From the NCBI GenBank assembly GCA_030248195.1, contig JASAND010018185.1:1-64000 (forward strand): a stretch of DNA of 64,000 bases, read 5' to 3'. Made by a program: the position numbers and the translations under genes. Positions 36,707-64,000 of the stretch are shown in pieces; the stretch's first letter is position 1, and every line of letters starts with the position of its first letter. The stretch is from Trissonchulus latispiculum. Its lineage: Eukaryota; Nematoda; Enoplea; Enoplida; Ironidae. Under the pieces are notes generated by a model that saw only the letters and a program-made list of their open reading frames with translations, had not been told where the DNA came from and did no database searches.

Positions 36707-36754
36707 ACTGCTACCTAAAAATGTGCAAATTTTGTGTATTGTTAAATGCATAGG

Positions 36755-37720: not shown

Positions 37721-38439
37721 CAAGAGTTCATAATTCTATTATATATTAGAAGAAGAGTGAGCCACTAGAGGGCTCCTCTTCTTGGCATTGCGTAACGGTG
37801 CTCCGACCACAATACGCGAATGTTCCCCCGTTTGGGGGGGGGTCGACAGGCATACCCCTCCCCGTTTGGTGGGGGGGTAGCAAAGGGTCCCCGGTGGGGG
37901 GGGGTAGCCAAAGAGGTCCCCGTTTGGTGGGGGGGTAGGCAGAAAAGGGTCCCCGTGTGGGGGGGGGGTCGTCAAGACAGGCAGAGATTGGCTGAATCTG
38001 ATTGGCTGTTAGTGACCCCCCCCAAACGGGGACCCCTTGCATACCCCCCACCAAACGGGGACCTCTTTGTACCCCCCCACCAAACGGGGACCTCTGCTAC
38101 CCCCACCAAACGGGGACCTCTTTTGGCTACCCCCACCAAACGGGGACCCGTTTTTGAATAGAACAAAAACTACCGTAATCCTCTGCTATCCCCCACCAAA
38201 CGGAGGGGGGGTTTCTGCAATCTGATTGGCTGTTGGCTACCCCCCCCACCAAACGGACCTCTTCTCGGCTACCCCCCCCACCAAACGGAGGGGGGTATGC
38301 TTTGTCGAACAGAGCTACCCCCCACCAAACGGGGGAACATTCGCGTATTGTGGGCGGAGCACCGTTACGCAATGCCAAGAAGAGAAGCCCTCTAGTGGCT
38401 TACTCTTCTTCTAATATATAGTGCAATTATGCACTCTTG
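37721..38439. mobile_element. CCAAACGGGG-saturated MITE with 7-bp target duplication and internal empty site
   Basis: It starts CAAGAGTTCATAATTC and ends AATTATGCACTCTTG, with ATATAAG at 37714-37720 and 38440-38446. It interrupts the left arm of the palindrome 37555-39370. The uninterrupted right arm carries one ATATAAG (inverse at 39209-39215), which is the pre-insertion sequence. The interior matches 33456-34111. Confidence 0.95.
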
Positions 38440-41559: not shown

Positions 41560-44500
41560 ATTAGTAAAATAGGGTGTTTAATACAATCAAAAATGGTCTA
41601 AAAAGTGTTCTAAAATAATCAATCTGCAAGGAAGAATTCATGTACCATGGATCGGTGAAGAAAAGCGAAGATCATCAATATGTAATGTATTCAGCACTCA
41701 ATGTCCAAGCAATAATTGTACAAGTTATTTCATGTTTGCCTAGCTAGAGTTGCCAGTATCCAGTGAAAATCAAGAAATCTATCAATAAGGGTCAAGGTTA
41801 ACACTCAATTAGGACATGAATTCGAGTCTTAATTACGGTCTTAGGCACAATTAGGTCCTACTAACGTGTGTTTTATTAACAATACTAATCCAGGAATTGC
41901 GTAAAAGGAGGGTATTCCGGCCTTAATCCCTTTAGTAAGTGGAGTTGTTACTCCCACACGAAGATAGAGTCAACATTTGATCTTTACTTAGATGAATGAG
42001 TGAATATCGTCCATTACCCGAGTCGAGTAAGGCCTTCCCCGCAATTTAGTAAATCACTAGTGTTTGAATATCAGCTAGCAGGAAGTCATAAAACCAAAAT
42101 GTGAAGTTTATGTGCGTAATTAGACCGAAAATTAGTCGTAAAATGTCTATAAAATGGAAATCTGCGCTTAAAACAGCAAAATATTGGAAGATGGTTCACT
42201 ATTAGGTAAGAAATAGTTAAGTACGTACTTAGATAGGGTTAATTAGTGATAATTAGGTGTTAATTATGTAATAATTAGTTAATTTTATTAATTTTGGTCG
42301 AAACATGACTTGGGTTCATATGAAAGAGAATTTAATTCTGATTTGAAAAATCCAAACCCGGTTTTCTAACTCCCAAAAATAAGAAAGTTACAGCCTAAAA
42401 TGTCTTTTAAAAATAGTTTTTTATTTCCTAATCCCAACACTCTAAAAAGGAGTGTTCTAAAAAGGTTTTTTTCTAGGTTTGACTTAAGTCAAACCTTTCT
42501 CTCTTTTTATTGTCTGGGAGGTTGTCTACCTCCCAGACTACACACCTCACGGGTGTGGCTTTCCTTTCTTCTTCTCTTTCTGCTAGGCCTCTTTCTTCCA
42601 AGGCCTAGCAGTTGTCCTCGCCTGAACTTTTGGCCGAGGACAAGACTTGCAAAGAAAATAGCATTATAAGCCCAAGACATGTAGCTTAGAGGGGGATAAT
42701 CTCCCTTAAAAAGTAATATGAATAATAAAGTAAGTAGGTAGATGTACGTAGGTAGGTACGTAGTTTATTATGATGTAATTTTTAAGTCATGTAAAATTGT
42801 ATATCTGTTGTAATAATTCTGCAAAGTTAGGAAATTTTGTAAAGTTTTCCCTTTGGTTACGTTTATGTGTTAGCAAAAGTTTCGCAAAATTTCGCCAAGT
42901 TTCGGCCCCCAAAATATATCAAAATTGGGTCAGTTGGAGGGCAATAAATCCAAAATCTCATTAATTCCCCCCCCAACGGCCAGCTGGGTCAGCCCGCTGC
43001 AGCGCAGCACACGAAAAAGGTGGCAAGCTTCTAGAAGGTTCTAGAATCTTCTAGAAGCTTTGCCTTAAAATCAAAGAAGAAGCGAGCTCCAGGTCTCGCT
43101 AATGACCTGTCACCGAGCTGTCAGCAAAACTGTCAGCTCGGTCCCAAAAATTTTCTTCTAGTCAGTGTTCACTTGAGAGCAACCGAAAGCGGTTGCTTCC
43201 CCCCTCCCTTTGTGCGTTCCCTAGTGCAGTTGTTACCTGCATGGGGAGTACAACGCACCTCCCCGGTTAGGCCAAAATAATAGGACTTTTCTGGCCTTCG
43301 GGCCAGAAAAGATTTTGAGAAAAATCCAGTGAACACTTACCAGTTAGGGCCATATAGGCGTATTATGCCTGGCCACAAAATGAGAAGAAAAATCCTAGGA
43401 TTTAAAGGCCCTTTTTGGCCATTTTTATTGTATTTTTGAGGCCTTAGGGCCACTTTTTTATGTCCAATTTTAGGCCTTGGGCCATTTTTTATATACTTTA
43501 TGAGGCCAATGGGCCATCACTTTATACACATTTTTTGGGCCTGAGAGCTCCATTTTTTCAGTATATTTTGGGCCTGAGGCCAATTTTCAGTTATGATAGC
43601 ATGCGTGGGCCTTGAGCCACTCTTTATTTCTTTTAATTTAATTTCTTATTCATATTATTTTATTATTTCTATAAAAGGGGCAGCTCATGTAAACTCCTCC
43701 TGTTTGATGGAGGTCTTGAGAATTGCCCCTGTCTTCAGTTTTTCTGTTTTTTGTGCCGACACTCTCTGTATACCGAGGTTCGCTGACCTCCACCTCCGAT
43801 TATTCCATTTATTTATTTAGTTATCTTTTAGTTGTACTTTTCTGGTCAAGCCACGACCATGTTTTTGCCTTTTTGCAAGGTCCTTTTGACCTAAAATCGG
43901 GGTTTTAAAAGTAGAATATGGGATATTTGAATGGGGACCCAATCCCTAAGCTTGAGTTAGAGGGTTTCTTTGTTACGACCCTATTTTTTATTGAGCTAGT
44001 TAATAGGAATACTTACCCCACAGCCGGCAACTAGGAGTTGCCGGCCATATTGTTTTAATCGCAGGCTTTGTTAAGCCTTAAAAATTATTGTTTGTATTCT
44101 GTAATTGTTGTTGTAGGTCGGTATCTAAAAGCAGTAGGTTATTAAAACACGAGAGAAACTTTTAAATCAAATCTTAAAAGTAATCACTTATTTTAAATAT
44201 TATTAATAATCAAGCCTTTCACGGGGAATGACCGGCTTCCCCATTAATTAATTTAATTATTGCAGTAGTTTTGTTTAATAGTAGTTTGTTTAGTAATGAT
44301 TGCTTAGCAATCATTACTCACATGGCTTTCACAAAATCTCAAACTTCTCAAAATCACTAAAGTTCTGCGCTATAAATTGAGTTTTAGATACCTAAAACTC
44401 TTAACAAACTCTCGTTAAAATTTAGTTATTTCAGTATGTTTGAAATAATAGCTAGTAGCGTAGGTCATAAGTAGAGTTAGATTTTGTTTAGACTGTTTGT

Positions 44501-47500
44501 AATTATGTCTGTTTTTAGGATTAGTTAGATAAGTGTTTACCTAAGAAATTGAATGGTTGTGTATGTGAGAATTGTACGAATGGCATTGTATATTGGTTTT
44601 TTACGACTGCATGTGCGTTGACTCGCGGAAACTCCTTCTGTTCGATGAAGGTTGTGAGCATCGCTGGAGTGATTAAGACTCAGATCATAAGCAGGAATGA
44701 AGAGTATGTGTGATTTGTATGAATGATCGCATTTCTGTGGATATGGGTGTGTTCTAGTCTAATTGTTACGTAAGTGGTTATTAGTTTAAGTGTTGTATAA
44801 CTGTTGTCTGATTGTGTTTAATTAGTTAATAGGGTTACGTAATTCAATACTAGATTACCTAAGGTCTTTGTATGTATGCTGTATGTAATGTGATTGTCCA
44901 AAGGGTTAATGATTCCTTGTGTGCGTGATACGTATGAAATACCAATATTATGCTAGGACTCCTATAGTATGCAGGAAATAGTAATAAATGATGTAGTTTT
45001 AGGTTGCAAATTTTGTATGCATATCTGGAAATCTGTGAACATGTGGTTATGTAGGAAATTTAGGTTTAGGCACAGTTTAACAAATATGCAAATGAGGATA
45101 AGGCTATAGGACCTAGAGTCACGGGGACTCCGTATTGGGTCCTCATCAGTTTAAATCAGGATATCCTCGATTCGTCCGCGTAAGCCACTCTTTGTCAAGA
45201 GTGCGGACGAATCGCAAGAAAGGAATCCACCAAATGGTCAGTCTCACTACCAAATCAATACAGACCAAGTCGTAATAAACGTAGGTTGTAATTATATTTG
45301 TTGTGTCCTTGTTTCCGATGTCGTAACACACTGTTATTGCCATTCTTAATCGAACTCGTCCTGTCTGATCCATGTTTTATTCCTAATAATGACCGCAACT
45401 GCGGTTTAACACCATTTCATATCGGTGTTCATGTGTGGTAAACAAAGCTTGTGAAACCCCATTATATAAAGGTTAGCGAGGTTGAAAGATCAACCTCGCC
45501 TTTTCGGTAATTAATGTGAAACTCACCTGTGACGATTATCGGCAAATGGCAATAATGGCTGTCAACAATCTGGTAATTTTAGTTAATACTAGGTAGTGAT
45601 TGATAATATACTTGTAATAAGCAGATTAATAATGAGTTACGTAAGTATTAGGGATAGGACACTAGAACCATCTTCTAAAAAAACGCTAAACTCACCAATT
45701 TTATGAATTTATCTAGTTTTCAATATTCAACATTTTCCAAAATGGGGAGTTGTTACCTTCCCTAGGTAGAATTTAGTAAGAACAGAAATTCTACATTAAA
45801 TTATGACGTTTCATTGAAATTGTGCGTTAACTTTCTTTTAACTCGCTAATACTCATTAAGAACAGGAAGTTGTTACCTTCCTTATTTAGGAACTGTGAAA
45901 TTAAAAGCTCTCAAGTTCAAATATTGCGTTTTCCTCAAATCTGCGTGTTAGTCAATACGTGTTGAAAATAGGAAGTTGTTACCTTCCTTGCTAGGACTTG
46001 GAAAACAAAAGTCCTAGATTCGATCACTTTAATCAAATTAATATCTCTCGAGTCGGTCTAGTGAACGGGTTCTTATCTGCTGTTAGAAGGGCCCAAAAGT
46101 GTATCAATTTCGAATAATAGATTCTAATCATACGGAAGCAGACCGTATAAAGGGAAATCAAGTTGAAATTATAGTTCCACATTGAAAGTGCAATTTCTTG
46201 CACAAGAATGCAAGAAATTGCCTCAAAAACTAACATTTTGCTCGAAATCAATTTTAAATAATGTAATCTTGCTCAAACCGTTCAGAACTTGCGTTATTCT
46301 GCGTAAGTCTCGAATTTTTGTAACAGTTTCGATTTGTGCAAGTTTATTCTGAACTCAGAAAGCCAAAACGTGAGTAATGGTTGCTGGGTTCGAATCCCGC
46401 ACCTATAACTTGTACTAATGGGTTTTAACCCATTTGATTCAGGTGCGGAAGTCCCGACTGATCCTGCCGGAATCATACTTAGAACGTCAGTATTCAGAGC
46501 CACAGTGGTATTATTCTTGGTCAGATATTTGATTTGATTGCGATAGTCAGTCCGGAGAAGGACATAATTAGTGGATCATTAGTTGGATTGGAATCAGCCG
46601 ATTAAGGTACATTGAGGATCAGAACAGACCTTTTGAGGAACGATTAAGGCAGTGACAATTTGGAAGTGCACCGGATCATTTGAGGGAACCAAAAACCAAT
46701 CACGAACTTTGTTAGCGACGTTCACACCTTGAACCTTTTTGTTTGAAAATACGGTACTCTATTATTTCTAATTGAAAATGGGTTTTATCATTCGATCTCT
46801 CTCCATGGAAATCGGGGTTGTCACCCCCGTATCTCTGGCCTAAGCCGCCTGTCTGTTAGTAGTGATTTGATATAGAAGACAAAAGAAAAGCTTAAATAAA
46901 ACAGTCTACTAACCCCATAACCGGACCAGGCTACCCCCGACCGGACCCCCCTTGTGTTTATCCCTTGGCGACCGTATAGCATCCGAAAGTGCTATTGTTA
47001 CTAGCATTTCGGGCTCACCCACAGACCGGAACCTTGTACTACTAACATCGTTAATTTAGTTAATTTAAACTGTTCAGTAGCTTGTTTCATTGATAATATA
47101 TTGTCCTTGGTAAGGAGGACGGAGGAAGAGTCATAATATAATTAATAACACGAACACAAGCATATAGGGACTGCACGATAGAGTTTAGTAATAGGTCTAA
47201 TATTTGGTTAGTTAGTTAGTTAAGAAAGGAAGGAAAGGAAGAGGAATATAACTGAACTGAGTCTAGTAATCGGAACCTTGTCCCTAACAACAATTAATAA
47301 CTTGGGTAATTTAGATACTGGCAACTCTGGCAAGCTATCTTTGTTTTGTCTAACTGTTCATATAGTATACCATTTGTAACTCATAATTTGTCTTTCTCCT
47401 TATACGCATTGTAATAATTACTCTTGTAGTTTGTTGTCATAATTCCCGCTGTTAACATCATAATTATCATTATTAAACTGTTGTATCCTAATACAGCATC

Positions 47501-47875
47501 CATTTACTAGGACATAAGGTTCAAATCTGGATTTGGAGTCACAGCCCTTGCACAAGTAAGTGTTTAAATTAAACCCTTGGTCCCGACAAAGACATCGCCA
47601 TCATCATTCCTGAATCTTGATTTGGCAATCAAGATCTGCTCAATCAGTGTTCTTTGATACAGACCTGATTCACCCTATCCAGAAACGGCAAGTGTCGACC
47701 CCGCTTGCCTTTGGTATCCATTGAACCCCTGTCTTCATCAAACGAACTCACACCTAGACCCCGTCCAGGTTGACCGCAAGGAATCTTTGGTTCTGGACAA
47801 ATCACCTTCCGAAGATCCTGTGCCTAAGTTTATCCTCACCGATAAACGCGTCAGCCTTCCGTGTACTCGAAGTGG
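41560..47875 (+). mobile_element. Hairpin-rich non-coding repeat, copy A
   Basis: The copy aligns end to end with copy C (offset about 16.3 kb falling to 16.1 kb) and, in reverse, with copy B. AGAGTTGCCAGTAT at 41745 and its inverse near 47322 frame the central part; matching 'aaggtt'/'aacctt' blocks lie just inside. There is no ORF above 100 codons. More than 25 short perfect hairpins are visible. Examples: GTCTGGGAGG/CCTCCCAGAC (42512-42538), AAGCTTCTAGAA/TTCTAGAAGCTT (43025-43060), CTTTTCTGGCC-TTCG-GGCCAGAAAAG (43286-43311), GCCGGCAACT/AGTTGCCGGC (44023-44045), AGTAATGATTGC/GCAATCATTACT (44292-44318), GCGAGGTTGA/TCAACCTCGC (45476-45499). A tRNA T-arm-like GGGTTCGAATCCC is at 46388-46400. 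Near the 3' end ACAA|GTAAGTG (about 47548) is a donor-like site. Confidence 0.85.
43390..43620 (+). repeat. Tandem T-rich units with GGCC-N3-GGCC mini-hairpins (copy A)
   Basis: Five to six units of about 40 bp alternate T-rich spacer with GGCCTTAGGGCC, GGCCTTGGGCC, GGCCAATGGGCC and GGGCCTGAGGCC. Copy C has the same at 59690-59885; copy B keeps two to three at 53700-53790. Confidence 0.75.
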
Positions 47876-49284
47876 TTGATATCCCAAGAGTCAGTAGTCG
47901 TGACAGACTGCAACGGAATTTTGGAATCCCAATCCTACCCACTTCATTACACTTTCCTTTGATCCCCAGATTTTAATCGGCTGTACCGGACGAAGCATAC
48001 ATTTTCAGAAGTTGGTGCAATGATAAACAAGCGTCTATTCTCGCCGGCAAAATTGAAAAACTTGAATTTCAAAATTTTTAAAATATTAAGATTTTTGTAG
48101 TCAGGAAGCCTCCAGCACTCTACCCTTTATATATATTTCAACAAAATAACTTGAGCTGTTAACTATTTGTGGAATGGGAGTTATTGCAGAAAAGATCCAC
48201 AACAAATTCGTGCCTTTATAAATTATCGTAAACAAAAACATCTTACTTTATTCAAGCAGGTATTAGAACCACTTAGTTCCACATTTCACGTTGGAAAGAA
48301 AACAGTAATAGTCTGTTAAATTCATTTAATGTAACTTTTTCCAGTGTCTGACGTTTTGACCTTGTCCAACTGCTACGGTCAATAGTATATAATTCGTAGC
48401 CTTTGCACACAGGCGTAATTATCATGTGAAATATCGTATAGTAAAATATCCTGCTGTGGCTAGCTCATAGTCGGCACAATGACATAGCTAGTGCATTGTC
48501 CGGACAGACTAGTACTCTGTCTGCGCTAGCTCTTTGTCCGTGACATACTCAGGCATAAAACATATCTGCAAAATTTGGTCAAGTTTATTTGAAGCAGTAA
48601 CGAGAAAATCAAAAACAAAGATTTTGTAACTTTCATGGTTTGCTTTGGTTTTGGGATTTTACGAAGGTTTCAACCAGCTGAATAGTGTTTTCTGTTAAAT
48701 GAAACACATGATGAACACAATGACTACCTCTAAAAATTAATAGACTTAATCTTTGGATGATAAGCTGCTTTTCCTTTGCATTGAGTGTGCAAGCGGTCAA
48801 CGTAACTCAGCCATATGGCCGGGGCGCGCAGTAAGGGCGTTAGGGCGCCTGTAGAGTCCGCTAGGGCGCCTGAATATTTTCTCTATAATAAAGTGTTATT
48901 ATGAATAAGGTGCTGTTGAAAGTGTTGTTATAAAGGAATTATTAGGAAACAACGTGTTTAAAGGCTTTAAATCAATATCTTTATGGCAATACGGACATGC
49001 ACCCCACCCAACCCGGACAAGGCATAAGCCCTTACACGGACACTAACCGATTTTCAACGTCCGCAATTGTTCGAAGTCCGCAATCTAAAACTTTACAGAT
49101 TTCAAAATTTTAATTTACATACAATTAAATTTTTAAAAAGTTGCAAGGGAGAACAAAACTGAGTCATTTACGCATATTTGTTTCCCAATTTAGAAACGGA
49201 AATAATATATATGTAATGAAGTTGCTAGGATCCGGAGTCAAAAATCGCTCTGCTCTCCGGTCTAGTGTCAGAAGTCGCTCTGCA
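47876..49284. other. Spacer between repeat copies A and B
   Basis: No gene. Short inverted repeats occur near 48475-48540 (CACAATG/CATTGT, CAGAC/GTCTG) and a repeated 'tagggcgcctg' near 48835-48875. It may contain the decayed 3' end of copy A or unrelated elements. Confidence 0.35.
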
Positions 49285-52200
49285 CTTGATTACACGGAAG
49301 GTCAGCACGTCCACTTATCGAAGTAGACTTAGGCACCGGATCTCCGAAAGGTGGTGTTCCAAAATCAGAGATTCCCTGCAGCTAACCTTTGTAGGGGTCT
49401 TCCTTGTGAGTTCGTTTAGTGCACTGGATTCCAGCTGATCAGCAAGAGGGGTCAGCACTTGCTTTGACTTGATCGCTGGATTGACGATGAGTCTTTCGAT
49501 TCCTGACCAGAACTTACCTTGAGTAGTCCTGATCCGTCCGAACCTTGGGCTGTGAGTTCTTTGAGTGGCTATCGAGCCTGGCTTTCAGAGACAATCGCGC
49601 CTCTCTGTTCAACTCTGAGACACTAAGTCTGACACACCAATTATTTATTACAATTCGTACAATTATGATGGGTACACCTTTTAAACAGACTGGCAAGTTA
49701 CAATACAACAACAAGTGTTACTACTAGGGGTCGTTACAAGCTATGCCAAAACAACAGATACAAACTACAGGTCCGTACAGTGTTCAATTTACTGTACCAG
49801 AGTTGCCAGTTACCGTCTTTAGTTTATTATTAATATTATCCTAATTTAGGATAATATTACCCAATTTGTGTATAGTTTAGGGACAAGGTTCGGTGGTACC
49901 TCTTCTTCTTCCTTTTCTCAAACTCTATCTTTACTACCTAATTATTACACTGTCTCCAACACTCTGCTAACTAACTACCTATATGCTTTCTCGTGCGCCT
50001 ATATGCTTGTGCTGTGCGACTCTTTATTCGTCCTTACAAAACGGACTATCAAACTACAAATCAGTAAACTACAAACAAACAATTATTAACTGAAATAAAC
50101 CTGGGGTCGGTCTATGGGTGAGTCCCCGAATGTTGGACACTGCTTTCCCGAAGGTCCGCTCCAACACCTAGACAGGGTTACTGTACGGAAATGTCTTTTT
50201 TGTGGAAATAGAGAAAATGGGGAGTTTTCCTGGTTCTGCCTTACTTATTCCTGGTTAACGAAAATTAAACAACTACAAAGTTCAACGAATCTACGGCTTC
50301 TTCTTCTTCACTGACGGGGGTTTGGCGGTTAGGCCAGAGACATGGGAGAAACGCCTCCCGACATAAAATTGATGGCGAAAACGGTTGAATTCATGATGTG
50401 ATTGAAAAGAGAGATAGTGTTTTAGTCCTTTTTCCAAGAATCAGATTTTAGCCTTTTGGCGGTTTCAGGTTTAGCCTTCCACTTTGATCAGGCAGTGCTA
50501 CGCTCGCTGTCTCTGTCTTAATCCACTACTCGGCAATACAGGCCGTCTATGTACCTTCCAAAATGACTGATCCCGATTATCTGACTGACTGACTGATACA
50601 ACTGATCGGGACTTCTGCGGTCCAATAAATGAGCAACTGACTACGACTATCTGTCGAGAGACACACGACTAATGATCCACGGGCAGTTCAGATTCGGATA
50701 GAGCAGCGTAGCTTCGTCTCCGCACCTGAATCATATGGGTTAAAGCCCATTAGTACAAGATTATGGTGCGGGAATCGAACCCAGCAACCATTACTCGTTC
50801 CTTTGCTTTTCAGGCCCAAAATGTGCATTTTGGGCCCCATTTGAACTTGTGAATTAAAGAATTGACTGAAAATCGTTGGCTATTGCCTCTTTGACAATGT
50901 TAACCGTTTCTGGTGACTTCTTGTCACCAAATGGTCCTTTCTGGCCATTGCTAGAGTGTACTTTCAGAATTTTGGTTAAACTTGCCGTGATTTCTGGTTT
51001 GGATGAAATGATTCGTAAGGTTTCCACCTTTGGCCCGGCTGGGCCTAACTGAACTTGTAGCTAGACGAGATGTTCTTTAAAAATGTACGAAAAGTGCGCT
51101 CTTTGCGACCCATATTCAGACTTCGTTTGCTTTGTCCTTTCCTTGCACAGACCGGCCTTCTAGGGCCATTTTGAAGTGAAATGCACTAATTCTGATTTCG
51201 CACAATCTTCAGAGCAAACAATAATACTGACCAATGTTAACGTGTTTTGACCTGTGTCAGGCCTGATTTTGTTGATTTGTCACGGGAAATGGGTTCATTT
51301 CCCGTGACCAATAGATTAGGTCAATTATATGCTTACGAAACTGGACATTCGCAGTGCATTTCTGATATTGGAAGATGGTCAATTACTAAATACTTATATT
51401 AATGGCCTTAACTAATGCCTACCTACTTACTTATGCTAACTAACTAAAGCCTATGTGATATTAAAGTTAACTTAAAACTACCTGGTGATTTAATGTGAAA
51501 TCCCTATTAATTATTTATTTGCCGGTTTGGGAGTGAACTAATTAACTTAAATTAAAACTAACTAGTTGATTTTGAGTGAGTTTTTGCATGTAATTAATTT
51601 TCGTCAGTTTAAGCAAAAATGCAAAAACTCACTCACTCACTGTCTCAGCAGCCATTCTACGCAGTCCCTACTTACCGACCTACCGACCTAGCCGAACTAA
51701 ATAACTAACTACTTTCCACATAACTACCTAAGAAGCTCGGGGAACCGTACCGAACCGCTATTCGATCCGGCGCTGGCAACCCTGGCAGCCAGCCGAGTGA
51801 TAGACGCGCAATCTACCACCCTTTCACTTGAGCTTGTTTAAATTTGTGCAAAACTTTCATATAATTCAGAGGAATTTCGAAGAACACGAATTTGAGTAAA
51901 AGTTATATATTCTTGTAGGGCTTGAAAAACTGAACATTTTTTGTGCTTACAGCACCAAAAAATGTTAAGTAATTAGTGAGAAAAACATAATTAAAGTTTG
52001 CTTCCACATATGCATAATTTGCACATATAATGTACTAATTGAACTGCACACGTGCTGGGTTGCTAAATTGCTTTCTTATATAGGCTAGCTTGAACTTGTT
52101 CTAATTGTAACCCGTGTAGCTCAATGGATGAGCACTGGACTGACTAATCCAGAGAATCTGAGTTCGAATCTCAGCACGGGTCTACTTCTTTTCTTTTAGG

Positions 52201-55200
52201 TTGGCTCATCTTTTGGCCTTTGACATGGGAAGTTAAATGCTTACGGTAACGACCGTGAGCCCATGATAATTTTAGGCCAAGACCCTGAATACCCCTATCC
52301 TAACTAGACCTAACTATACTGATCAGTTGTTTCCCAATTATTAAGAACTCCAGTTAATTAGTACAACAGGACTGCAAAAGTTTTCTTACCTAGAACTAAC
52401 TAAACTACGAGTCCGCTAATCGGATATCTAACACACAAAACTAGACTTTTGGATTAATTTCGCAGTAATTTAAATCATTCTGTCATAGTCCTGATTCGGC
52501 TATTTCTGGATTCCATGAATGCGGCTCATCCATCCCCTAATCGCAGGACAACCTACATGGATGACCGGAAATCCAACAGAATGGGCAGACCTAATTCGGG
52601 GTCCCCGTGACCCTAGGCTGCAAAACCTGCTCAAATCGCCGAAGATACCCACATTTCTATGCCAATTTCATACGATTTTCACCCCAAAATTAGCACTTTC
52701 ACAGCGATTACACATCCAACCAATAACTATTACTGAATTTTAATTTATCTATGTTTTGGGCCCAAATTGCTAGTCAATTTGGCCCCATTTTTCCTGCCTA
52801 ATATCTGAGCATTTTACTCATTCATTCTGGCAGTCCCAATACCCTTATCAGACAAAGGGGGTTTACATGGTATGCCCTCACTCACACTCACAATCACACA
52901 CCTTTGGCTCATACTTCACACTCTACAAAAGGGGCTAACCTTGGAACCTCCCACTCCAGGAGGGGTTTACCCAAGGAGCCACTTACGTAAATTTGGGGGG
53001 TCTCATTCACACTACAAATTACTACAATATTTACACATACGATTATATGAACACAATACATCCTAACTACTCCTTAACAAGACCTACCTACTTATAGTAT
53101 GCATATTTTTGCCCTAATTCTAAAGTAAATTTGATTTACATCTTCCAGTATTTTACTTTAAACTTTGGAACTTTATAAATTTTGTTAAAAGAAAATTTTT
53201 GTTGGATTTTTGAAACTTTGGCAGTTTAAGGAAAGCTGAACGAGTAATAATTGCTTAGGCAATTATTACTAAAAAACAGATTACAGACACATTTCCGCTA
53301 AGGACAGCTTCTCGTTAATTAAATTAACAGCGGGGAAGTCGGCCATTCCCCTCAGAATAACTTGATAATTAATAATTAGAAAATAGTTCTGAGTTTTAAT
53401 TCCTACTGATTTTTTAGGTAAGCCGACCTACACAAGACAGGACAACAATTCAGAAACACAGACAATAATGTTAACTTCAGTAGCGCCTATTTTGCGATTA
53501 CGGCCGGCAATTCCTAATTGCCGGCTGTGGGGAGAAACAATCCTTAAATTAGCTCAGTTCTGAATATGAGGTCGTAACCAAGGGACCTCCTATCTCAACT
53601 CAGGGGTGGGTCTCCACTCAGAATCCCAATTCCGTTACAAACTCCAACAAGAATGATTACACACAAAAATGTTTTGGGCGTACGCCCCTACAGAAACTGA
53701 GGCCATTCAGGCCGTGGCTTGGTTGACAAACATTATTTTAATTAAGGCCCGAAGGCCACAAAAAGTAAATTTTTAGGCCAAGAGGGCCTTTGAAAAAACC
53801 CTAAAGATGCGTTCCTGGTGTGTAGTTTCTGGCCGAGCATAGTGCGCTCATTTGGCCCTCATCGTGTGGTGTTCGTCGTGTAAGCTCAGTTCATCCCTTC
53901 TGACCAGTGTGGGTCAGAAGGGGCCCCTAACTCGAGTCCTAACCGGGGAAAGCACGTCTTTTATTCCCGGCCAAAACGCTGGCACAACGGGAAGACGTGC
54001 TAATAATGGGGGGGGGAGAAACCGACCGCTCTCGGCCGAGACTTAGACGAACACTGGTGAAAATTTGAAATTTTCCAGTGAGCTGACAGGAGTCTGACAG
54101 CTCACTGGTGTTTGCTTTTCGGGCGGAATTTCTTTGATTTTATTGGAGTTTCCAGAACTTTCTGGAAGCTCCCTATCTTAATACATGTGCCAGACATGGG
54201 CTGGCGAGGCGGCTGGTCCGTTGGAGGGGAAATTAACGAGAGAAAGAAATTATGACCCTCCAACTGACCCCTTTTTGATGGATTTCCCAAGCTGAATTTT
54301 GGGAAACTTTGCAGACTTTTTGGTTACCACGTAAAGGTTTAAGGACTTTAGAATTTAAGTTACGAAAATTAAAAAAAGAAGTTATACAAAATGAAGGCCT
54401 CTCGGGGCCGATTATGAGAAAATAAATATTAAGTGCCACTTTGGCCGTGTTATTTAGTAAACTTTATATGTATTATTTTCCGGGCGCTTCCTTGTCTCCA
54501 AGCCCCTTTCTCTCCTTTTGGGCGTGACCTTTCGGCCACAGACAAGGGAAGCCGCCCGTTAATCCTAGCAACAATTGTTCTTCCTCGCCAAGACTCTATG
54601 TATCACTGCAAAAGAAGCGGAAGGGCAATTGTTGCGTAAAAAATATGCATACTAACAACTACGCAATTTTCGACAAGATAGAAACTAAATATTATTATTC
54701 TACGTAACTACCTAAGACTACTAATTTATGTTTTATTTTAAATTATTTGGGAGGGAGTTAAGCCCCCTCCGAACGTATTACTACACTATAAGGTGTGTGT
54801 TAAGTCCTTCTCTGCTAGGCAAGTCTCTGCTGGGAGAGAGCCAACAGAGGCTCAAGGGAATGAATGAAAACATGAATGGGCGTAACCACACACAACTGTT
54901 ACGCATTATTGTAAGGTCACCTAAGGCCAATATTACAAAATTAAAATGTAACTAATCAAAACTTCTTTTACTTATAACTTTCGCAATATTGGGAGTTAGG
55001 TGACCCGGTTTGGAGTTTTGGAATCAGCAGAGAATTGCCTTTCAGATAAACCCAACTTGTATTTTGACCAAAAATTTGACAAATTAACTAATGATCGCCT
55101 AACTAATGCAAATTATGCCTAATTAACACCTATGAACACCAATTAACATTATTCCATGCTACTAATGGACAAATTATGACCTTATTTTGACCCATCTTCC

Positions 55201-55700
55201 AATATTTGCACTTGTAAACTGCGTAAAACGTTTTAAACTCGAAGTTTCTTGTTGGATTGTCGGTTATTCAACAATTTCTTTCTTTGGATTCGTTTTCCTC
55301 GATAATTTTCAGCTATTTTAATCAGTTTTTAATTGACTTCTTGACAATGTGAGGCCTTATTCGTGGCCTGGGAAGAGTAACGACTCCTCCATCATACAGG
55401 AAAACCATGTTGGGGCCTATTACTGACCCGGGAAGGGTAACGACCCCTCCATTATTGACTGGTAGCCTACCGAAACTTCCTTAGACTACATTCCACTGAG
55501 GTTCCATTCCATTTTCGTGTCATTTGCGTGAGAGTAATGCTACTTCTAGTCTTATTCTTCCTACCTACACTAGAACCTATGTCCCTGATGATGAGTTTCT
55601 GGGGGGTTTCACACTGACTGGCAACTCTGGTAATTACATGACAATTACTTTATACCTTGGACGTTTCATAGTTCACATCAAGATTTCACAGGCACGCCAC
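49285..55700 (-). mobile_element. Hairpin-rich non-coding repeat, copy B (inverted)
   Basis: Read on the minus strand this is collinear with copy A from the TIR-like 'ggcaactctgg' (55618) to 'gaccttccgtgta' (49290-49305). Homologous hairpins differ in sequence but stay paired: GCCGGCAATT/AATTGCCGGC (53503-53525), AGTAATAATTGC/GCAATTATTACT (53243-53270), CCCTTCTGACC/GGTCAGAAGGG (53895-53922), CCAGTGAGCTG/CAGCTCACTGG (54075-54108). Copy-specific hairpins include a 27-bp palindrome around 49845, GGCCCAAAAT/ATTTTGGGCC near 50812 and GTCACGGGAAAT/ATTTCCCGTGAC near 51280. A tRNA-like gene lies at 52110-52181. No long ORF. Confidence 0.85.
52110..52181 (+). tRNA. tRNA-like gene with 8-nt anticodon loop
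   Basis: All four stems pair perfectly: acceptor ACCCGTG/CACGGGT, D stem GCTC/GAGC, anticodon stem CTGGA/TCCAG, T stem CTGAG/CTCAG with loop TTCGAAT. A box TAGCTCAATGG and B box fit Pol III promoters. The anticodon loop CTGACTAA has eight nucleotides instead of seven, so identity is unclear (GAC or a four-base GACT). It sits inside repeat copy B; no counterpart is seen in A or C. It could be a tRNA-derived insertion, a pseudogene or an unusual tRNA. Confidence 0.45.
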
Positions 55701-55852
55701 TCATCAAAAAATCGCAATCTACGACAAACTGAGCTCTTCTTGGTCATTTTTAAGTTTTATTTTGCCTTTTCCATTACAAATGCCTTACGTTGTTGCTGGA
55801 TTTATGAGGGACTGCCTAAACCGAACTATATAATTTTTCCAGCATGTACATC

Positions 55853-56142
55853 TGTAAGGGAAGCAGGCATAGGAAAGATTGATAAGCCTGCAATGGGAGT
55901 TCAGCTGATGGCCCTGTGGTGTAGTTGGTTAGCATGTCTGCTCCGGAGTCAGAAGGGCCGTGGTTCGAAACCCGGCTGGGCCAATTCTTTATTTTCAATG
56001 GTGAGTGAAAAGCTGAACCTCCCTCTTTCCTTCTCTCTTCTAGGTCCTGGTTTCGTGGGTACAAGGGTGCCTGACGCCTCTCAGTCGGGCTTGTCCTTGG
56101 TTTCTTCCTGGTCCACCAGCCCTTGTGGAAGCGCTACATGTG
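55853..56142 (+). repeat. Arg-tRNA-like SINE, copy 1
   Basis: A tRNA-like head (GGCCCTGTGGTGTAGTTGG, anticodon-arm region TCTGCTCCGGAGTCAGA, T arm GTGGTTCGAAACCCGGC, then GGGCC) is preceded by 'tgtaagggaagcaggcatagg' and followed by a body ending 'aagcgctaca'. Loop position suggests CCG (Arg) with one stem mismatch. An open frame runs through it but is not a gene. A further tRNA-like B box (CTCGGTTCGATTCTGAG) lies between this and the next copy near 56288. Confidence 0.8.
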
Positions 56143-56348
56143 TCGAGGCTGCCCCAGGACCCGGATTGGACCCCTGTCTCCGGTCCCCCTGTAGTTGCTT
56201 CTGGTTGGTGGGATCTAAAGGGGTCTGGAACGTGTGTCGGGGGAGCACGGATCCATTGGGCTCAGAATGCCCTGCGCTGGATACGCTCTCGGTTCGATTC
56301 TGAGTTGAGTAAGCCGCGGGACGCGTCTTAATTGAAACCCGAGGGAAA

Positions 56349-56640
56349 TGTAAGGGAAGTAGGCATAGGAAAATTGATAAGCCTGCAATGGGAGTTCAGC
56401 TGATGGCCCTATGGTTTAGTTGGTTAGCATGTCTGCTCCGGAGTCATAAGGGCCATGGTTCGAACCCCGGCTGGGCCAATTCTTTACTTTCAATAGTGAG
56501 TGAAAAGCTGAACCTCCCTCTTTCCTTCTCTCTTCTAGGTCCTGGTTTCGTGGGTACAAAGGTGCTTGACGCCTCCCGTTCGGGCTTGTCCTTGGTTTCT
56601 TCTTGGTCCACCAGCCCTGGTAGAAGCGCTACACATCTGC
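56349..56640 (+). repeat. Arg-tRNA-like SINE, copy 2
   Basis: Nearly identical to the preceding copy, from 'tgtaagggaagtaggcatagg' through the tRNA-like head to 'gtagaagcgctacac'. Same orientation, about 496 bp downstream. Together with the reversed copy at 26705-26885 this shows an active or recently active SINE family. Confidence 0.85.
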
Positions 56641-56976
56641 TCATTAGTTGTGTATATAAACTAAATAACATGCATATAAAAGCTTAAATTGCTATTTCAT
56701 AATATTATTACCCAAAGTATACGAAAGTACTAACTGTAACCACCTGCGGCTAGCGTCTGTTTAAACTGACACTAGCAATATTGCTGTAGCTCCAGAATCA
56801 CGTACCCGAGAGAAAGTTGCTTCAATGCATCTGAGAACTAACACATAACTGCATATTTTAAACATTAAAAATATCTGATACCTATTAATTTTTTATAAGT
56901 TTTGCTTTGATGAACCAAACCAACCACATTCTATTATGAAGACCAATATATAGAGCGAAGTTATAGGCTGGAGCGC

Positions 56977-56978
<2 letters not shown>

Positions 56979-57027
<49 letters not shown>

Positions 57028-57052
57028 TATATATATATACATATATATATAT

Positions 57053-57092
<40 letters not shown>

Positions 57093-57093
57093 C
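56979..57093. repeat. (TA)n microsatellite
   Basis: About 115 bp of TA dinucleotides with a few interruptions (taaata, tacata, tgta). Confidence 0.95.
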
Positions 57094-57859
57094 ATTTTTT
57101 TCAGGGTGGGTTGTTTTCCCCGCATATATATGGGTTTTATCTTCCCGCCGATGGTTATTTTGTCCCGCCAGTTTGGGACATTGTTTCGCAATAACGCCAC
57201 GCGATAGAAAGGCGTCCTATAGGTCATAAAAAAGCTTACGACTAGACCTAGCTGCATATATAATCAGTATTTCGATATCACAAACCAGTAAAAAGGTCTG
57301 TCCAAAAATCAAAAAAGTGGGTTCTTGTTTCCCGCTTGACTATATAAATCGGTTGTAATACTGCTAGGTTTAGGTTGTAAATAGCCCTTTCTTAGCAAAA
57401 ATTGAAATTTTTTCTTTTTTGACGAAACCTTTTACTCCCTCCTCCAGTATAGGTTTTTCCGGACCCAACCCCACCCACTCTCATTTCGGCTATGCCCACA
57501 ACTAACTTCAAGGTACACCTATGGGGAGGGTAAGTCAAAACTTCTGGGAGGCAAAGGGGATCAGAAATTCTGCCAGCCCGATTGGCATTATCGTATGCAA
57601 AAATTTCTGGGGAGGAGGAAGCATAGGTGGCACAAATTTCTGTGGGGCAGGGCAAATGTAATCGAAAAGTGCTTAAATATATATCATATAGCTATTTTTG
57701 CTGCTAAAGCATTTTTGCAAAGGACCAAGGGTTGGAGCTTGAGCTCCAAAACCTACCAGCAGAAATACCCCCCCCCTTAGGTGTCCCCGTCTAGGTGTAG
57801 CAGAGCTGCTCAGTTTGGATAAAGGTGCAACTTGTTACACATAAATGAAAAACACGTAA
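57094..57859. other. Spacer between SINEs and repeat copy C
   Basis: No gene recognised. Short open frames on the minus strand (57392-57655 and within 56961-57257) lack any domain. Confidence 0.3.
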
Positions 57860-60800
57860 ATTTGTAATGGAATTAATAAAACAAGAAGTTGAAAATAACA
57901 GAAATTGGTCTAAAAGTATCCCAAAATAGTTAGTCTACAAGGGAGAATTCTTATGCCATGGATCCGTAAAGAAGAGCGAAGATCATCTACATGGAATGTA
58001 TTTATCAAATAGTGTCCAAGCAATAATTGTATAGATTATCTTATGTTTGTCTAGCTAGAGTTGCCAGTATTCAGTAGAAACCAAGAAGTTTATCAACAGG
58101 GCCCAAGGTTGATACTCGATTAGGACATAAATTTCAGTCTTAATTATGATTTTAGGCTTAATTAAGTCCTACTAACGTGTGTTTTATTAACAATACTAAT
58201 CCAGGAATTGTGTAAAAGGAGTATTTCGGTCTTAATCCCTTTAGTAAGTGGAGTTGTTACTCCCACACGGAGACAAAATCGACACTTAAACTAAACTTAG
58301 ACGAATTAGTGAGTGCCGTCCATAATTTTAGTCAAGTACAGCCTCCCTCATAAAGTAGTACAATCACTAGTGCTCGTATACTAGTTAGCAGGAAATCATA
58401 AACCCAAAACATGAAGTTTATGTGCATAATTAAGGCAAAAATTAGTCGTAAAATCGCTTATAAACTGAAAACTTGCACCTAAAACAACAAATATTGGAAG
58501 ATGGTTCACAATTGGGTATAAAATAGCTAAGTACGTAGTTAGGTAGGGTTAATTAGTGATAATTAGGTGTTAATTAGGTAATAATTAGTTAGTTTTAATA
58601 TTTTTGGTTAGAAAATGACTTGGGCTAATATGAAAGAGAATTTGATTCTGATTCTAAAAAGCCAAACCCGACTTTTCAACTCCCAATAATATGAAAGTTA
58701 TAAAGGAAAATGTTTTTATGAGATTACTTCTTGTGTCGTAATCTTACCACTCCAAAAAGGAGTGTTCTAAAATTGGTTTTCTTTTAGGTTTGACTTAAGT
58801 CAAATCTTTTTTCCTTTCCATTGTCTGGGAGGTTGTCTACCTCCCAGACTACACCTCAGTCAGGTGTTGTTTTCCTTTTCTCCCTCTCTGCTAGGCCACT
58901 TTCTCCAAAGGCCTAGCAGTTGTCCTCACCTGAAATTTTGGCCGAGGACAAGGCCAACAAAGAGGAAACAAAGAAAACAGTAGTATTAGCCCAAGACATG
59001 TAGGTTAGAGGGGGCTAATTCCCCTTATTAATAATACAAATATTAAAATAAGTAGGTAGATATACGTAGATAAGTACGTAGTTAATTATGATGTAATTTT
59101 TAATTCATGGAAAATTGTATATCTGTTGCAACAATTCTATAAAGTTATGAAATTTCACGAAGATTTCCCTTTGGTTATGTTTATGTGTTAAGGAAAATTT
59201 CGCAAAGTTTCGCCAAGTTTCGGCACTGGAAATATATCAAAAATGGGTCAGTTGGGGGGCAATAATTTCAAAATCTCATTAATTTCGACCACTAATGGCC
59301 AGCTGGCTCAGCCCGCCGCTGCGCCTCACATACAAAAGATGACAAGCTTCTAGAGGTTCTAGAACCTTCTAGAAGCTTTGCCTTAAAGTCAAAGCAAAGT
59401 CCCAAATTCGCTAATGACCTGTCACCGAGCTGTCAGCAAACCTGTCAGCTCGGTCCCAAAATTTTATTTTCAAATCAGTGTTCGTTGAGTTGCAGCCAAA
59501 GTAGGTTGCTTTTTCATCTCCATTCGGTGCGTTCCCTAGTGCAGTTGCTACCTGCATAGGGAATTCAGCGCACCCTCCCAGGTTAGGACGCATAGGGACT
59601 TTTTCTCTGACCCACAGTGGTCAGCAAAAAGACATTGAGTCTTTTAACACGAACACTACCTTCATTTTAGGGGCCTTTTGGTTTTGTTATACCCGTCCAA
59701 ATCAGCATTTTTTCGGCCCTTTTGTGGCCCTATTTTTGGTGGCCTAAGGGCCAATTTTTTCCGTATTCTGGATGCCATTGGGCCAGCTTTTTTTATACGA
59801 TTTTGGGCCATGAAGCCCCACTTTTATTCAACATTTGGGCCTGAGGCCGTATTTTAGTTATGATAGCATGTGTGGGCCTTCAGCCACTTTTATTTTATTT
59901 TATTTCATTTTTTCCTCTTCTTTATTATTATTTTACTATTTTAAGAAAAAAAAGGGCAGCTCATGTAAACCCCTCCTGTTCGATGGACGTCTTGAGAATT
60001 GCCCCTACTTTTATTTTTCTGTTTTTCTACACCAACACTCTCTTACTATTGAGGTTTGCTGACCTCCGCCTTCCACTATTCTATTTTTATTTTATTATTC
60101 CTTTCAGTTACACTTTTCTGTCAAGCCACGACCATGTTTTTACCTTTTTAGTAAGGTCCTTTTGGCCTAAAATTGGGGTTTTAAAGTAGAATATGGGATT
60201 ATTAAGTAGGGACCCAACCCCTAAGCCTGAGCTAGAGAGTCCTTTTATTACGACTCTATTTTTACTGAGTTAATCAGTAGAGATGTTCACCCCACAGCCG
60301 GCAACTAGGAGTTGCCGGCCATATTGTTTTAATCTTAGGCTTTGTTAAGCCATAAAATCACTGTTTGTACTTTGCACTGTTTGTCGTAGGTCGGTAATTA
60401 AAAATAATAGGTTATCAAAAACGCGCGAACAAGTTTTAAAACAAAATTCTAAAGTAATCTTTTATTCCTTCTAAATAATTATTATCAAGCGTTTCACGGG
60501 GAATGACCGGCTTCCCCATTAATAAATTTAATTGTTGTCAGTAATTTTGTTTAATAATAATAATTTTGGTTAGTAATGATTGCTTGGCAATCATTACTCA
60601 CATGGCTTTCTCCAAGTTTTAAGTCTTCCAAATCTTACCAAAATTCCGCGCTATAAACTGAGTTTTTAGATACCTAAAACTCATAAACAAAATTCTCGTT
60701 AAAATTCAGTTAATTTAGTACGTTTAAAATAATAGCTAGGAGCATAGGTCACTTAGTATTAATTAGAGTTAGATTTCATTTAGATTGTTTTTAATTATGT

Positions 60801-63800
60801 CTGTTTTTAGGATTAGTTAGATAAGTACTTACCTAAGAAATTGTGTGTTTGTGTATGCATGAATTGTATGAATGGCATTGTATATTGACCTTTATGACTG
60901 TATACGCGTTGACTTGCGGAAACTCCTTCTGTTCGAAGAAGGTTGTGAGCATCGCTGGAGTATCAAGACTCAGACCTTAGGCAGGAATGAAGTGCATGTG
61001 TGATTTGTATGACTGATTGGATTTCTGTCAATATGAGTGTATTCTAGTCTAAACGTTGCATAAGTGGGGCATAAGTGGTTATTAATTTAAGTATTGTATA
61101 AATGTTGCTTAATTGTGTTTAAATAGCAAATAGGGTTACGTAGTTCAATATTAAGTTCAATATTAGATTACCTAGGATCTTTGTATGAATGTTTCATGTA
61201 ATGTAGTTGTCAGTTATAGTTGAGCAAGTGGCCGTCTAAATGGTTAATGATTCTCTGTGTGTATGACTCGTATGAAGTACCAATATCATGCTAGGATTCC
61301 TAAAGTACGCAGGAAATGGTAATAAATAATGTAGTTTTAGGTTGCAAGTCTTGTATGTGTGTTCGGAAGTTTGTGAATACATGGTTACGTAGGAAATCTA
61401 GGTTTAGGCTCAGTTTAGTAAATATGCAAATGAGGTTAGGGCTATAGGATCTAGAGTCACGGGGACTCCGTATTAGGTCCTCATCAGTATGAATCTGGAT
61501 GCCCTCGATTCGTCCGCGTAAGCCACTCTTTGTCAAGAGTGCGGACGAATCGCAAGGAAAGGGATCCGCCAAATAATCGATCTCAGAGCCCAAATTAATG
61601 CATCAGAATTCTCGCCCAAAAGGTATACTGACATTACGTAAGAGGCTGTAATGATTGTAGCTTTTAGTTCTATTCATTATGTCATTGTTTTTAATGCTAG
61701 AACACACCATTATTGCCGTTCTTAGTTAAATTAACCATGTCTGATGCACATTTCATTCCTAATATTGACCGCAACCGCGGTCTAACACCATTTCATGTCG
61801 GTGTTCATGTTCAAAGGCAATAAACTAACAAAAACCCCGTTAAGTAAAGGTTAGCAAGTTTAAAAAATCAAACTTGCTCATTTTTGAATAATATGAAGCT
61901 CATCCATGATAATTATCCATAAATGGCAATAATAGGTTTCAACAATCTGGTAATTTTAACTAATATCAAGCAATAATCAATACCATACCTGAAATAAGTA
62001 AATTAACCATTAGTTACGTAAGTATTATGGATAGGGTACCAGAACCATCTTCTGATAAAGGTTAAAATCATCAGTTTTATGAATTTATCTAGTTTTCAAT
62101 ATTCGATACTCGCAAAATAGGAAGTTGTTACCTTCCTTACTTAAACCCGCGAAACTAAAAGTTCTACATTCAAGTATTGTGTTTTCACCAAACTCATGTG
62201 CAAATCGTTTTTTAATTAAGCAACATGTATCACAGATAGGAAGTTGTTACCTTCCTTGCTAGGACTCGGAAAACAAAGGTCCTAGATTTGATCATACAAA
62301 GAGAAATCAAGTTGAAATCATAGTTTCACATTGAAAGTACAATTTCTTGCACAAGAACGCAAGAAATTGCCCTAAAATTAGCGTTTTGCTTAAAACCGAT
62401 TTTAAGTATTGTGATCTTACTCAAATCATTCAGAGCTTGTGTTAATCCACTTAAATCTCAAACTTTCACAACAATTTCGACTTGTACAAATTTATTCCAA
62501 GCTCATAAAGCCAAAATGTGAGTAATGGTTGCTGGGTTCGAATCCCGCACCTATAACTTGTATTAATGGGTTTTAACCCATTTGATTCAGGTGCGGAAGC
62601 AAACGTGGTCCTGCCGGAATCAAGCCTAGACAGTCAGTATTTCGGAGGTCTCAGGAATCTATATGATCATAATTATTGGTAGTCAGTCCGGAGAAGGGCA
62701 TACGGATATTGGACAGTTATTTTGATCATATTCAGTTTTGTAAGGTATATTGAGGAAGTCGGATCAGACTTTTGTGGAACGGTTAAGGCAGAGACTATCC
62801 GTGAAGTCAAGCACCAGAATCGAATACGGGACCTAAAACCTAAATCAACGAATTTGACAATCATCCTTTTACAGTACTTCAAATTGAACTTTATTCTTTC
62901 AATTCAAAAGATGAATCTTTTCGAGCTAATCATCAGCCTTATCGAAGGGGTTGTCACCCCCTGTCTTTGGTCTAACTAGTTCAGTGGTTTATTTTCCAGT
63001 CAGTCGGAAGTAGAAGACTTAACGAAGAGATTAAATCAAACCATACTTGTACTAACCCCATAAACGGACCAGGAAACTCCCAACCGGACCCCCCCCCTTG
63101 TGTTTGTCCCTTGGCGACCGTATAGCATCCGAAAGTGCTATTGTTACTAGCATTTCAGGCTCACCCAAAGACCGGAAATCTTGCACTACTAACTCCCTTA
63201 ATCTAGTTAATTTAAACTGTTCAGTAGCATTTGTTATTAGTATTATATGGTCCTTGGTAAGGAGGACGGAAAAAGAGTCTTAACTTAACAACACGAACAC
63301 AAGCATATAGGGATTGCACGATAGAGTTTAGTAATAGGTCAAATATTTTGTTAGTCAGTTAGAAAGGAAAGAAAGAGGAATAGAGTAGAACAGAGTTTAG
63401 ATATCAGAACCTTGTCCCTATCATCAATAAATATCTCGGGTAAACCTAATACTGGCAACTCTGGCAAACTACTTTTGTTTGTCAAATTGTTCATACAACA
63501 TACAGTTTGTGATTTGTAGCCTGTCTTACTCATTGTACGCACTGTAATAATCCCTCTTGTTGTTTATTGTCATCATTATCACTGTTAATACTATAATTAT
63601 CATTATTAAATTGTTGTGTCCTAATACTGAATCCCATCTACTAGGACATAAGGTTCAGGTCAAGATTTGGATCCATAGCCCCAGCACAAGTAAGTGACTA
63701 AACTTGAACCCTTGGTCCTGACAAAGACATCATCATCATCGTTCCAGAATCTTGATTTGGCAATCAAGATTCTCAATCAGTGTTCTTTGATACAGACCTG

Positions 63801-64000
63801 ATTCATCTATTCAGAAACGGCAAGTGTCGACCCCGCTTGCTATTGATATCCCTTGGATCCCTGCCCTCTTCAAACGAACTCACGCCTAGACCCCATCCAG
63901 GTTGACCGCAAGGAATCTTTGGTTCTGGACAAATCACCTTCCGAAGATCCTGTGCCTAAGTTTATCCTCACCGATAAACGAGTCGACCTTCCGTGTACTC
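57860..64000 (+). mobile_element. Hairpin-rich non-coding repeat, copy C (runs off the window)
   Basis: Collinear with copy A from 'gtaatggaattaataaaac' to the window end. Hairpins kept include GTCTGGGAGG/CCTCCCAGAC (58823-58849), ACCGAGCTG/CAGCTCGGT (59424-59454), GGTGCGTT/AGCGCACC (59526-59574) and AGCAAGTTT/AAACTTGCT (61853-61878). Two AGGAAG-TTGTTAC-CTTCCT hairpins (62119-62137, 62238-62256) and TGCTA-TTGTTAC-TAGCA (63136-63152) are also present. The last ~100 bp are almost identical to copy A (47769-47868), closer than the rest of the copy. Confidence 0.85.
59690..59885 (+). repeat. Tandem T-rich units with GGCC mini-hairpins (copy C)
   Basis: Five units of GGCC-N3-GGCC (GGCCTAAGGGCC, GCCATTGGGCC, GGGCCATGAAGCCC, GGGCCTGAGGCC, GGGCCTTCAGCC) separated by T-rich spacers, homologous to 43390-43620. 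Confidence 0.75.

Follow-up and report, generated by a model that had tools for sequence, protein, structure and literature searches.

Hairpin-chain repeats in a nematode genome are very probably the long terminal repeats of giant Ty3/gypsy-type retrotransposons

What are the long non-coding repeats, each a chain of short hairpins, that lie side by side on a contig of the nematode Trissonchulus latispiculum? We analyzed a stretch of 64,000 nucleotides of eukaryotic nuclear DNA (assembly GCA_030248195.1, contig JASAND010018185.1, positions 1 to 64,000, or C12373:1-64000; hereafter, the window), which holds three such repeats, A, B, and C, and a fragment, D. We conclude, with a probability of about 0.93, that all four are long terminal repeats (LTRs) and that they belong to several lineages of giant Ty3/gypsy-type retrotransposons, the assignment to Ty3/gypsy being made by structure. 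An original prediction, made from the letters of the window, had described three related long copies plus a fragment, all free of long open reading frames. Both points held, with slightly shifted ends (Table 1); the 5' end of D, at about 890, is approximate. In the self-comparison of the window, the identity of aligned bases was 81% for A and C, 52% for A and B, and 59% for B and D, with no recognizable similarity of A and C upstream of their starts. No closed stop-to-stop frame within A, B, or C exceeds 99, 89, or 114 codons, respectively.

The host assembly (733.8 Mb in 21,732 contigs) was searched with a 2-kb piece of A, which gave at least 79 match rows from the 40 scored of 3079 first-look candidates. 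The copies lie on many contigs with unrelated flanks. As the original prediction had suggested, the ends could be delimited from copies across the genome: TGTAATGG was the start of 18 of the 19 fetched copies, and CTTCATTACA was the end of 15, the remainder being cut short on that side. The LTRs are 6.2 to 6.6 kb long and have TG...CA ends, with the inverted terminal bases TGTAATG and CATTACA. An exact 4-bp target duplication flanked 5 of the 14 two-ended fetched copies (AATG, CATA, CAAA, AATT, and TATG). Copy C was also duplicated (AATT/AATT, with the right end read from the contig beyond the window), so that 6 of the 17 two-ended copies (the 14 fetched plus A, B, and C) carried an exact duplication. 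In five copies (L022, L023, L025, L027, and L028) the 3' end departs somewhat from this form (AATCACTTCATTACA or similar), and target duplications were seen in 0 of these 5. Exact patterns from the conserved blocks had no matches in viral contigs and prokaryote contigs, and blastn of positions 46100-48000 against phage and plasmid records found no match.

Related copies were attached to coding sequence. Copies L016 and L021 have a common upstream sequence ending in ATTTGTGGAGGT immediately before TGTAATGG, and the last 12 to 13 bases before the LTR of L017 are the same. The polypurine tract before the 3' LTR, TTTGTGGAGGT, adjoins TGTAATG in L016, L017, L021, and L037. Homologous open frames lie upstream of the L016 and L021 LTRs: the first encodes a NADAR domain (3.2e-13 and 2.1e-12), and the second, of about 500 amino acids, has no family match. 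In a further frame of the L016 contig OTU matched weakly (0.0046, under the curated cutoff), and the contig begins with a gypsy integrase (H2C2, 1.7e-20; rve, 2.5e-10). At the other end of the element, TGGAGCCCCCAGTGAGG was found 17 bp past the LTR in both L026 and C14649, followed by a gag frame within about 200 bp of the LTR, and the gag frame of L026 matched Retrotrans_gag (3.8e-8) and zf-CCHC (1.1e-4). The candidate primer-binding site is TTTTTGGAGCCCCCAGTGAGG, which is common to L026 and C14649 and lies 17 bp behind the LTR.

Locus C14649 carries both LTRs, in the same orientation. The order is 5' LTR (about 21.6 kb to 28,119), the junction resembling a primer-binding site, gag, NADAR (36,683-38,287), TTTGTGGAGGT, and 3' LTR (42,265-48,779), giving an LTR-gag-NADAR-LTR element of about 27 kb. 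Where both LTRs of this one locus were read, they were 92.3% (326 bp) and 95.7% (585 bp) identical. In C17124, a 3.2-kb piece before the integrase encodes, in one frame, an aspartyl protease (4.7e-10), a reverse transcriptase (RVT_1, 2.1e-39), and an RNase H (1.5e-40); the order protease-reverse transcriptase-RNase H-integrase was pieced together from different loci and is not one read-through.

The integrase search, in which 73 of 6277 candidates were scored, returned at least 17 rows in open frames of 3,592 to 3,841 codons, and the NADAR search (82 of 567 candidates scored) found the gene open in many copies. Among the matches listed, at least 17 contigs have integrase and NADAR on one strand, with NADAR 1.7 to 4.1 kb downstream as judged by eye; in C11656 the two are 8.3 kb apart. 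A protein search with the L031 NADAR frame gave no match at E 0.001 (7995 candidates scored), and a PDB search with the L030 NADAR frame gave none at E 0.01. In C11656, about 6.5 kb separate the integrase frame from the OTU-like one (L035 ~1750 to L030 ~4280), and the two ends of this stretch give similar translations from opposite strands, as though it contained an inverted-end element.

If B is an LTR from a separate lineage, one would expect diverged NADAR genes to precede a polypurine tract and a diverged LTR, at about the distance of 3.9 to 4.0 kb seen in L016 and C14649. Two diverged NADAR genes (54% and 59% identity) were tried. In both cases an LTR started at about this distance, 3.8 and 3.6 kb behind the NADAR gene (L040 and L041, respectively). 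In L040, GTGGAGGT stands before TGTAATG, and the LTR is closest to B (66%); in L041, the stretch begins at GGAGGT, and the LTR is closest to A (61%). The LTR piece in L031 represents a further lineage. In C5520 (L032, L017 upstream), a 1.5-kb stretch occurs three times before one LTR, in copies 99% identical and about 2.3 kb apart. The window also holds a gypsy remnant of its own (6297-8967, minus strand), which was set aside as a separate element with 26% identity to the integrase of the family; a protein search with the window frame 16504-17724 gave no match at E 0.001 (1838 candidates scored).

The original proposal of a giant non-autonomous element fails as worded, since gag, pol, and accessory genes adjoin related copies. 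That of a long leader of a retroelement came close: the repeats are read as whole LTRs of a retroelement that has its coding part at other places in this genome. A solo LTR is the remnant of recombination between two LTRs; C is firmly taken to be one, and A and B likely are, which would explain why A, B, and C stand without genes. The purine run before A (41510-41550) differs from the polypurine tract of the family, and A was therefore not taken as a 3' LTR.

Several observations weigh against the LTR identity. No exact duplication was found in 11 of the 17 two-ended copies, including A (AAAG/CTTT) and B (CATT/TATA). Three of the 11 are LTRs attached to internal sequence (L016, L021, and L026), and the other eight (L019, L022, L023, L025, L027, L028, A, and B) are unexplained; they would require either that the duplication was lost or that different insertions recombined. 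The candidate primer-binding site was called from its position and TGG alone. The complete locus C14649 was read in pieces only; the left end of its 5' LTR merges into a poly-A stretch, which obscures any target duplication.

The hairpins themselves were counted as perfect stems with loops of 3 to 20 nucleotides, at cutoffs of at least 8 bp or at least 10 bp, with shuffled controls. At the lower cutoff, A, B, and C have 18, 10, and 13 stems (2.81, 1.52, and 2.12 per kb; shuffles, 0.24 to 0.32). At the higher cutoff they have 8, 8, and 7 (1.25, 1.22, and 1.14 per kb; shuffles, 0.00 to 0.02), an excess over shuffled sequence of the kind on which the original prediction had staked itself. The rest of the window exceeds its own shuffles, but less so, with 0.79 and 0.93 per kb at 8 bp or more and 0.16 and 0.47 per kb at 10 bp or more. 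Across 21 LTRs or parts of LTRs (129.5 kb), 305 stems of at least 8 bp and 163 of at least 10 bp were found (1.26 per kb for the latter). The corresponding numbers were 6 and 1 in 11.7 kb of element coding DNA (0.09 per kb at 10 bp or more), 0 and 0 in 3.8 kb of the 3' untranslated region (UTR) of the element, and 6 and 1 in 11.8 kb of flanks. The hairpin chain is thus specific to the LTR and absent as such from the rest of the element. Coding constraint could account for the low number of hairpins in coding DNA but not in the 3' UTR.

Hairpin positions coincide between A and C in 18 of 26 cases (null, 1.6), between A and B in 8 of 29 (null, 1.85; maximum of 5000, 7), and between C and B in 6 of 29 (null, 1.65; reached in 0.08%). 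Four of five regions of A that were folded had z scores of -4.7 to -8.3, the lowest in region 42505-42650 with its three adjacent hairpins, and the fifth, the conserved block 46375-46455, had a z score of -1.7. Rfam at the gathering threshold returned two tRNAs and no family for the hairpins, and no other gathering score was reached up to E 5.

The pairing of the hairpins is kept between lineages. We matched 12 hairpins by hand, a biased sample picked for presence in both copies. Of their 104 pairs, 78 were unchanged Watson-Crick pairs and 20 were double changes that keep Watson-Crick pairing; the others were 1 G-U double change, 2 single changes to G-U, 2 single mismatches, and 1 shared non-pair. 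An unpicked count over the 5' half of the LTR in five lineages gave 309 double-changed cells, of which 160 (52%) were Watson-Crick, compared with 23 to 26% when the partner was slid by 1 to 3 bases; each pair of lineages was counted in both directions, so the cells are not independent. When 21 copies were compared with A, 52% of double changes were Watson-Crick (slid, 18 to 38%). The signal in A, B, and C alone was weaker, with 44 to 47% for A-B and C-B and slid values mostly of 16 to 33% that reached 40% and 47% in two instances; the double changes between A and C (11 and 6) were too few for a verdict.

The hairpin chain is framed by conserved sites. With up to 2 mismatches, CAGAGTTGCCAGT occurs at 9 sites in the window (shuffle mean, 1.36; maximum, 5), six of which are the paired framing sites of A, B, and C, with one in D, one extra in B, and one elsewhere. 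Among the LTRs read, AGAGTTGCC lies 151 to 197 bp inside the 5' end of 17 of 19 full-length LTRs and of both partial ones, and GGCAACTCT lies 574 to 650 bp inside the 3' end of all 19 full-length LTRs and of L036; the diverged L031 piece has no site of the latter type. The sequences originally likened to terminal inverted repeats are therefore real and paired in A, B, and C, but they are not the ends. Because the CAGAGTTGCCAGT sites lie well inside the LTR ends, we discarded the idea that they mark a hAT element.

What might the stems do? The LTR would be transcribed at one or both ends of the element RNA, a step much less certain than the identity of the LTR. Possibly, though at somewhat less than even odds, the stems act in this RNA as a long structured leader or tail for packaging, dimerization, or the control of translation; the T[TC]GT[TC]A apex, in sense orientation, would then be a candidate loop for protein binding. 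Of the 39 short hairpins in each of A and C, 8 and 7 carry the T[TC]GT[TC] apex in sense orientation and 0 and 1 in antisense. The mean minimum free energy (MFE) is lower for the sense strand than for the antisense strand in A (difference, -1.58 +/- 0.65 kcal/mol) and B (difference, -1.48 +/- 0.75 kcal/mol), each by about 2 standard errors, and not lower in C. Between lineages, single changes to G-U outnumbered those to A-C (135 versus 96), but the slid controls leaned alike. Against a role in RNA, only 2 of the 30 short hairpins of B carry the apex motif, single changes to G-U and A-C were equally frequent (125 versus 124 in 20 copies compared with A), and the mean folding z scores are alike on the sense and antisense strands (-1.05 and -1.02 for A, -0.81 and -0.76 for B, and -0.62 and -0.85 for C). 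Equal G-U and A-C counts would also be expected from dead copies. At 6, 7, and 8 bp, the same finder gave 34, 29, and 16 G-U and 23, 21, and 19 A-C pairs in A, B, and C together, and 9, 7, and 5 G-U and 4, 0, and 0 A-C pairs in Escherichia coli 16S plus 23S rRNA. The tests for RNA strand bias were thus mostly negative. The original suggestion of a structured non-coding RNA locus is supported by the conserved pairing but not by most of these tests.

A role of the stems as DNA is almost as likely. The LTR would then be mostly promoter and enhancer, and the perfect inverted repeats would be protein sites or cruciforms. The stems are nearly pure Watson-Crick, with 238 such pairs versus 3 G-U and 2 A-C among those common to A and C; G-U double changes are rare (10 versus 160 Watson-Crick); and the equal folding z scores of the two strands also fit. 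Protein sites should keep their sequence, however, and the stems change on both sides between lineages. The one-way orientation of the apex motif in A and C and the slightly lower sense-strand MFE in A and B, if not in C, likewise speak against a role as DNA.

The hairpins could also be of no use to the element, an unlikely reading in which template switching, during reverse transcription or DNA replication, perfects quasi-palindromes and keeps their arms alike. A process of this kind is described in PMC8794818, and the 20 double versus 4 single changes in the hand-matched hairpins agree with it. Yet the whole element is reverse transcribed, and stems of at least 10 bp number 163 in the LTR sequence versus 1 in the coding DNA and 0 in the 3' UTR; the recurrent loop motif and the framing sites are conserved as well. 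Template switching may still help the arms to stay alike.

A Ginger-like element, meaning a large DNA transposon that is non-autonomous and has terminal inverted repeats, is very improbable. Ginger1 has a Gypsy-type integrase with OTU, TGT ends, and 4-bp duplications (PMC2836005), and the TGTAATG/CATTACA ends and 4-bp duplications resemble these. However, Ginger1 encodes a transposase only and has short inverted ends of 40 to 270 bp and CCGG or CCGT duplications, unlike those found here, whereas the present unit is a long direct repeat that flanks an internal region in C14649, and the family has gag, reverse transcriptase, and RNase H. That the repeats are a family of host genes encoding a long structured RNA, as three non-coding copies within 22 kb and a conserved structure might suggest, is more improbable still given the many contigs, unrelated flanks, exact target duplications, and attached gag and pol, although the host could have put one domesticated copy to use.

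We tentatively propose that the LTR could serve as a signal, distributed along its length, for packaging, assembly, or translation. It would be a 6-kb array of about 26 to 29 stable short hairpins, maintained by selection for pairing across lineages with only about 54% identity between their accessory proteins; a conserved inverted pair frames it over a long range, and a T[TC]GT[TC]A loop recurs in it. Most LTRs are short modules for promoter function and polyadenylation, and we know of no distributed signal of such kind and size from any mobile element. The two LTRs make up about half of the element of about 27 kb and carry a hairpin chain found only there, in several lineages of one genome, so that comparison or experiment could address why giant LTRs evolve and what purpose pairing inside an LTR has.

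Table 1. Features of the window and of related loci (positions in the window unless a locus is named)
Feature	Position	Strand	Remarks
Copy A	41551-47951	+	Very probable LTR, 6401 bp; same starts and ends as 19 fetched copies
Copy B	49212-55778	-	Very probable LTR of another lineage, 6567 bp; resembles L040
Copy C	57863-64000	+	Very probable LTR, 6215 bp in contig; end at contig 64077, 77 bp beyond window
Target duplication AATT left of C	57859-57862	+	Right twin AATT at contig 64078-64081
Fragment D	~890-1	-	Very probable 5' LTR part, further lineage; cut by contig start; nhmmer and alignments
5' framing site of A (AGAGTTGCCAGT type)	41745-41757	+	Pairs with 47317-47329
3' framing site of A, inverted	47317-47329	-	
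Framing sites of B	55617-55629, 49798-49810		Paired with each other
Framing sites of C	58056-58068, 63451-63463		Paired with each other
Three adjacent hairpins of A	42512-42538, 42580-42611, 42612-42643	+	
Hairpin of A	43112-43142	+	B homologue 54075-54108, two double changes
Hairpin of A	43286-43311	+	Three double changes versus B 53895-53922; more variants in L041, L040
Hairpin of A, GCCGGCAACT-agg-AGTTGCCGGC	44023-44045	+	One double change in B and in L040
Hairpin of A	44292-44318	+	One double change in B 53243-53270
Hairpin of A	45168-45214	+	Three double changes in B
Two hairpins with T[TC]GT[TC]A apex, AGGAAG-ttgttac-CTTCCT	45864-45987	+	
Most conserved LTR block among A, B, and C	46368-46452	+	Fold z -1.7, unexceptional
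NADAR-domain gene	L030 5995-7605; L031 5943-7532		Separate gene downstream of integrase

Among known systems, Ogre elements, plant Ty3/gypsy giants, have LTRs of up to 6.5 kb and a total length of 16 to 25 kb (PMC6431247). The LTR length found here is at the top of that range. Ogre carries an extra gene between the 5' LTR and gag, whereas here gag lies so near the LTR in L026 and C14649 that there is no room for one, and the host is an animal; we know of no hairpin-chain LTR in Ogre. Large retrotransposon derivatives (LARDs) of barley have long LTRs and conserved non-coding sequence, but LARDs are without coding partners in a family copy, and here gag and NADAR lie between the same LTRs. Burro, a planarian giant gypsy-like element, has a very long polyprotein with accessory domains (PMC6431247). 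Burro polyproteins are marked by apoptosis and ubiquitin accessory domains and carry BIR, MATH, and ankyrin domains. Burro is similar in its animal host and long polyprotein, the frames with integrase here having about 3,800 codons, and it differs in that NADAR here is a separate gene; only pieces of the polyprotein were scanned for domains. In a Gypsy lineage of Ectocarpus, NADAR is at the N terminus of Pol, and NADAR is also reported in oyster Tx1 elements (PMC12477816). The Ectocarpus lineage is alike in having NADAR in a Gypsy element; here it is in a separate frame downstream of the integrase. Few retroelements have been reported to carry NADAR, and the gene described here extends their number by an animal gypsy-type element. 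Searches of one open-licence library for giant, long, or hairpin-rich LTRs, for LARDs and other large non-coding transposons, and for retroelements with NADAR yielded no description of this family; of the known family with a coding partner by which the original prediction could have been overturned, the coding partner was found, and a family description was not.

Some further features of the window were observed. Inside B, on the opposite strand, is a tRNA-like gene (52110-52182, plus strand) with intact stems and an Rfam score of 59.9 bits; its anticodon loop has 8 nucleotides, and the anticodon was reported as four letters, "gact." A SINE-like repeat occurs in two copies that are 94% identical (55853-56138 and 56349-56633), the first with a tRNA-Pro-like stretch. 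Related repeats in both orientations at 20648-20859, 33450-34115, and 37715-38443 have tandem CCAAACGGGGACC units between inverted ends and are perhaps a foldback-type element. Two GGCC-rich arrays (21282-21447 and 21627-21776) are mutually inverted in AT-rich surroundings. The frame 15561-16118 (plus strand), which had no Pfam match, encodes repeated W-x6-W-GKR units, presumably like those of a myoinhibitory-peptide (allatostatin B) precursor.

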